NCBI RefSeq assembly: GCF_008245225.1
Contig: NZ_VTAW01000006.1
Span: forward strand, 62,001-126,000
Length of the DNA: 64,000 bases
Reading direction: 5' to 3'
DNA from: Natrialba swarupiae
GTDB taxonomy: Archaea; Halobacteriota; Halobacteria; Halobacteriales; Natrialbaceae
Below are positions 49,146-51,667 of the stretch, piece by piece. The position numbers were made by a program, and so were the translations under genes. The notes below the pieces were generated by a model. It did not search any database, was not told the origin of the DNA, and was given only the letters and a program-made list of their open reading frames with translations. Position 1 is the stretch's first letter. The number at the start of each line of letters is the position of its first letter.

Positions 49146-49487
49146 TATCGGCGCTTTCGGACTCGGACGGAATAAGGACACGGGTCGGACTCGAGCTGGA
49201 GAGGGTGGGACCTCGAGGTGTAAGGAGGTGGGCTCGAGCGGAACTGCTGGTTGGACCGTCCGCGATCGAGTCGACGGCGTACTGAAAACGAATCGAGGGA
49301 GTTGATCGTCTGGCAGTACCGATCAGCGTACCCTTACCAGTTGTTGCAAATACAATTTCTTTATTCAACAACCGGCGTACATATTTCGCGAAAGTATATC
49401 AAAAAAGAAGGTTGGCCGGCCATTGGTGTGGTCGGCGACCGGGGAATGAGCGACAATTCATTCAGTACCACCCACGTACCACGTTGC
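49146..49487. other. Spacer of 342 bases before the toxin-antitoxin pair
   Basis: The right half (49340-49415) is AT-rich, with AGTATATCAAAAAAG at about 49394-49408, a likely promoter of the antitoxin gene. An ATG at 49446 is in frame with the antitoxin and could be an alternative start. No other gene is seen. Confidence 0.5.
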
Positions 49488-49763
49488 ATGAGTACGAACG
49501 CGGGAGACAACGGCGACGGGGACATGGTGAAGTTGAACGTGAAGGTCCCGAAGCGGCTTCTCGAAGAGGTCGACGAATTAGCCGAGGAACTGGAGTACAC
49601 CAACCGCTCGGAGTTCGTCCGTGAAGTGCTTCGCGACACCACGGAGCCGATTCTGACGCCCGGCGCACAGGAGGGCGTCTCGGAGGGCTACTCGGACGTG
49701 CCAGCGGGACGTACGATGTCCACGGACGAGGCCCGCGAACGCCTCGGCATCGATCAGGACTGA
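49488..49763 (+). CDS. Ribbon-helix-helix antitoxin (CopG family)
   Basis: 91 residues from ATG 49488; in-frame starts at 49446 and at the MVKLN methionine are possible. MVKLNVKVPKRLLEEVDELA is the ribbon strand and first helix and NRSEFVREVLRD the second helix of an RHH DNA-binding domain. The remaining ~45 residues (TPGAQEGVSEGYSDVPAGRT) are likely the toxin-wrapping part. The toxin gene starts 10 bases later. It should repress the pair's own promoter and neutralise the toxin. Confidence 0.85.
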   Translation: MSTNAGDNGDGDMVKLNVKVPKRLLEEVDELAEELEYTNRSEFVREVLRDTTEPILTPGAQEGVSEGYSDVPAGRTMSTDEARERLGIDQD

Positions 49764-49773
49764 GGGCCGAACA

Positions 49774-50070
49774 GTGGCTCACGAGGTCGTTCTGACGGAG
49801 ACGTTGGTCAAAACGTTGGAACAGTTCGAGACGGAGGACGCCGAGCGGATCATCACCAAGCTGGAGGAGATCGGCGACTTCCCGGACCATTTCCTCGACC
49901 GGTTGAAGAACCATCCCGGCTACAAGCGTCGAGTCGGTGACTTCCGCGTGCTGATCGATTGGGACAAGGACAACGAAGTGATCTACGCCATCGACGCCTT
50001 CGAGCGGAAGAAGGAGTACCGCGAACTCGGTAAGTGTCGGGAGGTATGGGGGTCGTGGCGAGATGAGTAG
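49774..50070 (+). CDS. RelE/ParE-family toxin
   Basis: 98 residues from a GTG start. VVLTETLVKTLEQFETEDAERI is the N-terminal helical hairpin, and LKNHPGYKRRVGDFRVLIDWDKDN with IYAIDAFERKKEYREL the beta-sheet core typical of RelE-like ribonucleases. Basic residues on KRR and R-K-K are in the places used for mRNA cleavage on the ribosome. Paired with the RHH antitoxin, an unusual but known partner exchange. Confidence 0.87.
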   Translation: MAHEVVLTETLVKTLEQFETEDAERIITKLEEIGDFPDHFLDRLKNHPGYKRRVGDFRVLIDWDKDNEVIYAIDAFERKKEYRELGKCREVWGSWRDE

Positions 50071-50159: not shown

Positions 50160-50378
50160 TTACTCGTTCTCCCCGATCACCGCCGCCTCGAGCGACCCGG
50201 ATTCGATCACAACCGTATACCCCTCGTACTCGAAGCGGACGGTGACGTCGGCGGGAGACTCGAGTAGCGAGACGAGTGCCTCCGTATCCCCCGTCTCGTA
50301 CAGCGGTGGGAGCGCCGTCCGCTCACAGCCCTCACGGGCCGCGATTCGAGCGAGTGCCGTAGCGAGTGCTGGGTGCAT
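50160..50378 (-). CDS. HalOD1 output-domain protein
   Basis: 72 residues from ATG 50378. The sequence ALPPLYETGDTEALVSLLE and VTVRFEYEGYTVVIES matches the HalOD1 domain, a ~70-residue unit common in haloarchaeal signalling proteins and in stand-alone form. The first 47 bases overlap the 3' end of the zinc-ribbon gene at 50332-50511 in another frame. Function unknown; an output or adaptor role is assumed for the family. Confidence 0.75.
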   Translation of the reverse strand: MHPALATALARIAAREGCERTALPPLYETGDTEALVSLLESPADVTVRFEYEGYTVVIESGSLEAAVIGENE

Positions 50379-50511
50379 CGTGATCGGGGACGAATTCGAT
50401 GATCGTCGTCTCGAACGCCGATTCGCAGTCGGGACAGGCGACGCTGCCGTCAGTGGTCTCCGTTCGAACGTCGGTACCACAGTCGCAGTGGATGGTGAGT
50501 TTCGTGACCAT
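50332..50511 (-). CDS. 59-residue zinc-ribbon protein overlapping the HalOD1 gene
   Basis: ATG at 50511, stop at 50332. Product starts MVTKLTIHCDCGTDVRTETT and contains CPDC about 17 residues later, giving two metal-binding pairs (HCDC and CPDC); then ESAFETTIIEFVPDHD and a polar tail. It is too short for most ORF filters. It overlaps the HalOD1 gene by 47 bases, so the two are probably translated in series. Small zinc ribbons next to HalOD1 genes are a repeated theme in haloarchaea as I remember it. Role unknown. Confidence 0.65.
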   Translation of the reverse strand: MVTKLTIHCDCGTDVRTETTDGSVACPDCESAFETTIIEFVPDHDAPSTRYGTRSNRGP

Positions 50512-50625
50512 GTGTCTTCGTATGGCCCGACGTAGCGGCGAGCATCCCAGCTAGCAAACCAGAACGCGTGAAACTGATCCGACCGAACGGACGCGGGGCT
50601 CTGGTTCGGCGAAACGTCGGCACAT

Positions 50626-50785
50626 CTTTATTTCACCGACGTGAAGCATGGTTTGCTCCCGCGACGCGGGGGCGTGTGTGAGCCGGAGTGCTTTGCTTGG
50701 TCGCTGGACTCCGGCTCAGCGCACTTTCGTGCGCATCCGTTCGATACGCAACCAAGCGTAAAGAACGTTAGGATGCTAACCAGTT
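50626..50785 (+). ncRNA. Candidate transcribed hairpin array
   Basis: A TATA-like CTTTATTT at 50626-50633 is followed by consecutive hairpins: CCCGC-GAC-GCGGG (50658-50670), an 11-base perfect stem TGAGCCGGAGT/ACTCCGGCTCA (50679-50689 with 50708-50718), GCGCAC-TTTC-GTGCGC (50719-50734), TACGC/GCGTA around 50745-50760 and GTTAG-GATG-CTAAC near 50768-50781. No coding frame is convincing. The order promoter-then-hairpins suggests a small structured RNA. I do not recognise it as RNase P, SRP or a known riboswitch. Confidence 0.5.
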
Positions 50786-50828
50786 GAGGGGCTCAGATTC
50801 GTTCTGCGGTCGGCAATGGCGAAAGAGA

Positions 50829-51010
50829 ACACTACGAAAGCCCCTGTCCGCGTCCAGTCGAAGGACTCGCTGTGCGCGTTCCCTTCGGTCACGTGCTTGC
50901 TTCGTCCGTCTTCCCGGACGCGGACAGCCCCTTTCATTCCCACCCCGCGGTGGTCTGACCGGCCAGCCGAAACGGGTGGGAATGAAATGGATCGGGGGCT
51001 TTCGTGGTGT
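50829..51010. repeat. 182-base element with three-way-junction palindromes
   Basis: A 16-base closing stem (50829-50844 with 50995-51010, one G-U pair) encloses two arms: TGTCCGCGTCC/GGACGCGGACA (50845-50855 with 50916-50926) and TTTCATTCCCACCC/GGGTGGGAATGAAA (50932-50945 with 50974-50987). Inside the first arm AGTC-GAAG-GACT makes a further small hairpin. The arms sit almost directly against each other. This may be a structured RNA, or a cruciform DNA element such as a miniature transposon. Confidence 0.7.
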
Positions 51011-51070
51011 GTAAAATCCCCGAGACGTCCGCGACGTGTAATCCGAACACACCGCTGTCTGCCCGACTGC

Positions 51071-51667
51071 TCAGAACCCGTCCAGCCGCGTCTGCCCGCT
51101 CCCGTCGTCGCCGACGTCGGCCAGGTCCGCGGCTCGCTCGAGCGCGTCGGCGAACGTCTCCTCCTGGCTCCGATCGTACAGCGTCGCCGCCGGATGGACG
51201 CAGATCAACAGCCGCCGGGGGGTTCCTTCGATGCGGACGTCCTCGAGCGTGCCCGCCTCTTTCGTGACCGCGACCGATCGCTCGAGGAGGTGTTCGCTCG
51301 GAACCTTGCCGAGGGTGACGATGACCTCCGGGTCGAGACGGTCGAGTTCGGCCTCGAGGTAGCCCCGACAGTTCGCGAGTTCGTCTTTGGTCGGGTCGCG
51401 ATTCTCCGGCGGGCGACACCGAACGCAGTTGGTGATTCGAACGCGGTCGCGCTCGAGGCCGACGATCCGGAGTTGGTCGTCGAGGACGGTACCGCTTCGG
51501 CCGACGAACGGCTCGCCCTCGGCGTCCTCGTTCGCACCTGGCCCTTCGCCGACGAACACCACGTCGGCGTCCTCGGGGCCGGTTCCGTTGACGATCTGGC
51601 TCCGCGAGTCGACCAGGGCCGGACAGCGGGTGCACTCGGTGACACGGAGGTCTTCCATCGATCCCAT
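51071..51667 (-). CDS. Uracil-DNA glycosylase, family 4
   Basis: 198 residues. Four cysteines for the 4Fe-4S cluster are seen in TECTRCPAL and RITNCVRCRPPENRD; the catalytic and uracil-binding motifs are VGEGPGANEDAEGEPFVGRSG and the C-terminal HPAATLYD. It removes uracil from DNA, mainly after cytosine deamination. It stands after the structured intergenic region with no operon partner. Length is normal for the family. Confidence 0.95.
   Translation of the reverse strand: MGSMEDLRVTECTRCPALVDSRSQIVNGTGPEDADVVFVGEGPGANEDAEGEPFVGRSGTVLDDQLRIVGLERDRVRITNCVRCRPPENRDPTKDELANCRGYLEAELDRLDPEVIVTLGKVPSEHLLERSVAVTKEAGTLEDVRIEGTPRRLLICVHPAATLYDRSQEETFADALERAADLADVGDDGSGQTRLDGF

Follow-up and report, generated by a model that had tools for sequence, protein, structure and literature searches.

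The element at positions 50785–51054 of the window (the 64,000-nucleotide stretch of Natrialba swarupiae DNA analysed here) is very likely a non-autonomous IS6-type MITE of a haloarchaeal kind, now present as an immobile relic. It is assigned to this type because the terminal repeats and 8-bp target duplications of its family are the same as those found in 697-bp IS6-family insertion sequences; the family has IS6-matching repeats, duplications (in relatives of the window copy), no transposase inside and dispersed copies. The copy in the window is an old one, with one arm lost and its ends degraded.

Fold and extent of the window copy

The core of the element (50829–51010) is predicted to form a three-way junction, with an RNA MFE of -106.9 kcal/mol on the + strand (z -8.9) and -105.2 kcal/mol on the - strand (z -8.0). 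None of 200 dinucleotide shuffles folded as well on either strand, which bears out the view of an earlier note on this DNA that the fold is far from random. In the predicted fold ACACTACGAAAGCCCC (50829–50844, + strand) pairs with GGGGCTTTCGTGGTGT (50995–51010, + strand) to give an inner closing stem of 16 bp, one of which is a U-G pair. Arm B (50845–50926, + strand), which follows, is a hairpin of 82 nt whose basal stem, TGTCCGCGTCC/GGACGCGGACA, has 11 bp; it contains inner hairpins and belongs to an arm family of which 100 copies were compared. The second arm of the window copy, TTTCATTCCCACCC/GGGTGGGAATGAAA, has 14 bp. The central hairpin, CCCTTTCATTCCCACCC...GGGTGGGAATGAAATGG (50929–50990, + strand), has a stem that is near-invariant in the family and a loop whose orientation flips among copies. 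The closing stem, the two arms and the small hairpin in the first arm thus all lie where the earlier note had placed them. A scar at 50991–50994 marks the position that arm A (~80 nt) takes in two-armed copies; of 75 cores, 37 are two-armed and 29 one-armed.

The range 50829–51010, which had been taken for the whole element, folds as described but constitutes only its core, the ends at around 50785 and 51054 having been missed. These ends are approximate to a few bp, and the outer repeats lie 41 bp from the closing stem. The left outer terminal repeat, TGAGGGGCTCAGATTC (50785–50800, + strand), and the right one, read as the reverse complement CGGTGTGTTCGGATTA (51039–51054, - strand), each agree with the consensus GGCCGTGTTCAGATAC at 10/16 positions of the full repeat and with GTGTTCAGATAC at 9/12. 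The element is flanked by genes for a uracil-DNA glycosylase (51071–51667, - strand) and a HalOD1 protein (50160–50480, - strand). Several open frames cross 50829–51010, so that the absence of a coding frame claimed earlier does not hold literally; these look like chance frames of GC-rich DNA, and in the biological sense, that no real gene is present, the claim stands. In this region Rfam gave no family at gathering score, and the microRNA matches obtained were sub-threshold and attributable only to chance.

Dispersal, ends and a probable IS6-family partner

A homology search with a structure model, as the earlier note had proposed, recovered an element family: a covariance model made from 17 copies detects members in 90 of 121 genomes of the Natrialbaceae and in 23 of the 29 genera, with up to 24 matches per genome (a two-armed, near-symmetrical copy can count twice), and by BLASTN 73 of 149 relatives carry copies. 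The genome that contains the window has two copies, the second being two-armed (G000:C60:81322-81579). Carriers include Halopiger goleimassiliensis, Natronococcus pandeyae, Haloterrigena salina and one Haloterrigena salifodinae plasmid. On rough gene calls, copies are intergenic, typically ~70 bp from each neighbour gene, and their neighbours show neither a fixed arrangement nor a strong preference for convergent pairs; a terminator role was set aside, convergent neighbours not being in excess on the same calls. Also set aside were viral carriers, suggested by three pattern matches that were all weak with the model (bits 12.9–16.2), and an Elusimicrobia pattern match (L213) with a model score of only 25.7 bits.

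Cores range from 180 to 320 bp across copies, with no coding gene inside. The full core of ~260 bp is a four-way junction with the order inner closing stem CACCACGAAAGCCCC, arm B, central hairpin, arm A and GGGGCTTTCGTGGTG; of the two arms, only B is present in the window copy. In complete copies arm A is bordered on both sides by GCCCC, and the sequence AAAGCCCCTTTCA found in several one-armed copies is what slippage across the arm hairpin would be expected to leave. Arms are probably lost in this way, when replication slips from one flanking GCCCC repeat to the other and skips the hairpin, which would give three-way forms like the window copy. Loss can be seen at a single site, where the arm of G149 is absent in G063. 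Two further kinds of variant were observed. Minimal inner palindromes occur at G045:C1:277158-277225 and 802333-802401, where the closing-stem halves span only ~67–69 bp, too short to hold the arms and the centre; and some arms (L190, L092, L031 at the rpsO site, and L176) carry extra nested loop hairpins, AAGACGCTTCGCGTCTT and GAGAGAGCGAAGCTCTCTC among them, which look like palindromes inserted into the loops or grown within them.

The inner stem is the wrong boundary: no target duplications were found there when it was taken as one, and a search of 12 genomes for the inner stem as the end of an autonomous element gave no pairs at transposon spacing. Copies in Natronococcus pandeyae have a conserved stretch of flank outside the stem, which terminates in GTGTTCAGATAC. 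The outer repeat lies exactly 41 bp from the stem at 26 of 150 ends, as against ~0.7 per distance in shuffles; in the window copy it is found at this distance on both sides, degraded as described above, and in most old copies it is unrecognisable. Among 22 clear-ended copies, 7 have an 8-bp duplication matching at 7/8 positions or better, whilst re-paired flanks give on average 0.4 such copies and at most 3. At the predicted position the exact duplications are GCACACAC (L166), CTCGCGGT (L167) and TTCGACCT (L184, from Halopiger goleimassiliensis); by-eye reading gave duplications that are near-exact or shifted by one base at L145, L165, L168, L169 and L204. No target duplication is visible in the window copy. 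Comparisons of orthologous loci gave only remnants or unalignable intergenic DNA and no clean empty site, so it is dispersal, the ends and the duplications that make the case for mobility. Some sites (rpsO and pcm) hold a copy in more than one genus, and decay has reduced some copies to short remnants (L090 and further sites).

An outer-repeat scan of nine genomes identified a putative partner. L252/L269 is 697 bp long and encodes a 211-aa protein of the IS6 family (NF033587, E 1.4e-56); its ends, GGCGGTGTTCAGATAAG and GGTAGTGTTCAGATAAG, lie between AAATTAAG duplications. Exact 8-bp duplications are present too in the IS6 relatives L271, L272, L275, L283 and L289, the end of L283 being GGCGGTGTTCAGATAC. 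The MITE repeat GGCCGTGTTCAGATAC matches the IS6 ends GGCGGTGTTCAGATAA/C in L252, L270 and L283. Generation of 8-bp duplications is a feature of the IS6 family (PMC7986276), and the archaeal IS6 elements ISH14, ISH29 and ISHarch12 (696–698 bp, 211 aa, 8-bp duplications; PMC6807381) resemble L252/L269 in length, transposase size, duplication length and in ends that start with GG (PMC6807381). Archaeal IS6 insertion sequences and the element have outer repeats in common, but the element has no transposase and its interior is unrelated to that of the insertion sequences. The genome that contains the window has no relative of the L252 transposase at E 1e-20, and the window copy is therefore probably stranded.

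Dispersed copies, outer inverted repeats shared with IS6 elements and 8-bp duplications in several relatives all favour one of the two origins suggested by the earlier note, the remnant of a hairpin-ended mobile element. The element would owe its spread to an IS6-type transposase that acted in trans and recognised its outer repeats, with the inner 180–260 bp of hairpins as passive cargo; a complete copy reads outer repeat, closing stem, arm B, central hairpin, arm A, closing stem, outer repeat. Many 'structured' intergenic regions of haloarchaea may thereby be explained as one transposon family with a probable mover. The nearest described system is MITEHarch3 (ISfinder), an IS6-family MITE without a transposase (mentioned in PMC6807381 and PMC7986276), which is haloarchaeal by name, gene-less and IS6-assigned like the element; the likeness is one of description. 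The two IS6 MITEs in ISfinder measure 227 and 336 bp (PMC6807381, PMC7986276); in the literature on MITEHarch3 and IS6-family MITEs we found no account of nested co-varying hairpin arms or of spread.

Other short repeats of haloarchaea were compared. The SMRs and PATEs of Haloquadratum walsbyi are, like the element, short, gene-less, palindrome-rich and dispersed (PMC3119063). SMRs, unlike the element, have no target duplications and no known transposon partner (PMC3119063); the 8-bp duplications and the IS6 transposon partner contradict an SMR identity. That the element is a PATE derived from IS605, or a scaffold for TnpB guide RNA, is extremely unlikely. Haloarchaeal PATEs do typically have palindromes close to their ends (PMC3119063), yet they are without terminal inverted repeats (PMC3119063) and lack 8-bp duplications, both of which the element has and which contradict a PATE/IS605 identity; a crude motif scan of the fetched copy flanks found no TnpB.

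Maintenance of arm pairing

Pairing in the arms is retained in spite of extensive sequence change. The 100 arms have 66 distinct basal-stem 8-mers, and 91.5% of their pairs are Watson-Crick, versus 52.4% with shuffled partners. In a 17-sequence alignment 13 of 42 pairs show two-sided change, a level reached by 0 of 500 shuffles; compensatory changes among homologues, which the earlier note had taken as a test of the RNA reading, are thus present. RNA under selection should tolerate G-U pairs. At arm positions 2–9 the mismatches are 14 G-T, 20 A-C and 33 other. Between copies at the same site, central loops are more alike when one is inverted: identity is 0.93 inverted and 0.70 direct for G034 versus G156 at the rpsO site, and at the L195 site 0.90 and 0.59 for G149 versus G051 and 0.83 and 0.59 for G149 versus G063. 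A paired C-G to G-C swap separates G074 from G149 at the rpsO site.

Since G-T mismatches do not exceed A-C mismatches and loops are inverted between orthologues, these data point to DNA template switching and not to a functional RNA. We consider it probable that template switching maintains the arm pairing. A replication fork that changes template from one side of a hairpin to the other would carry a mutation across and would sometimes invert the loop, a course of events that we regard as likely, if by no means certain. Template switching during replication homogenises repeat arms and inverts spacers, which in combination constitute its signature (PMC8604942), and can create paired or compensatory changes (PMC8794818). 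For a MITE shaped in this manner a host function is unnecessary.

The alternative origin in the earlier note, a new structured RNA, fares less well. A structured RNA used by the host, or an RNA element within flanking transcripts, that arose from the repeat and was kept by selection on its RNA fold, would account for the very stable fold, the strong two-sided covariation and the same-site copies across genera (for example at the rpsO site in G034, G156, G074, G149 and G084). We nevertheless judge it very unlikely: the abundant covariation comes without a wobble preference on either strand and includes exchanges of G-C pairs for C-G, between orthologues loops and arms are inverted or lost, orthologous sites decay to remnants (L090), neighbour genes have no fixed arrangement, and there is no Rfam match. 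Templated correction at the DNA level fits the compensatory changes better than does selection on RNA.

The arms could instead be paired through selection for a DNA cruciform or hairpin, as a protein site or an aid to transposition, in an element that would still be an IS6-type MITE. Wobble-free Watson-Crick pairing suits a DNA constraint equally well, and the sequence of the central stem is almost invariant; however, arms are freely lost (the 29 one-armed copies), and template switching is known to produce loop inversion and arm replacement as side effects (PMC8604942). This reading has in our estimation a minor but real chance of being correct. Somewhat more doubtful still is the broader proposition that the arms are selected as DNA hairpins (or RNA) for a role in the host or in transposition, such that a mini-transposon is kept for its fold in most of the archaeal family. 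Template switching, which we prefer, would make the family a warning case, in which the customary proof of RNA function, strong two-sided covariation, seems to be the product of a replication process. With hundreds of copies and many orthologous sites, the family also offers a natural test bed in which template switching, inversion of loops and loss of hairpins could be measured in archaea.

Adjoining loci

To the left of the region, at 49473–50070 (+ strand), a ribbon-helix-helix protein is followed by a 98-aa protein that resembles RelE-type toxins and has no Pfam match; the two form a probable toxin-antitoxin pair. Abutting the left end of the element, at 50609–50787 (+ strand), is a member of a different multi-copy family (copies L041–L058 and L299–L318), carried by 23 of 149 relatives from 11 genera, with up to 9 copies per genome and 3 in the genome that contains the window. 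A conserved promoter-like box (ACGTCGGCA..TCTTTATTTC) precedes ~150 nt with three conserved hairpins, one of which encloses a variable loop of 17–19 nt; matches of these loops to flanking DNA are not in excess, and the family has no Rfam match. Its pairs change by G-U on one side, as in RNA, and by its sequence features it is probably a multi-copy small RNA.
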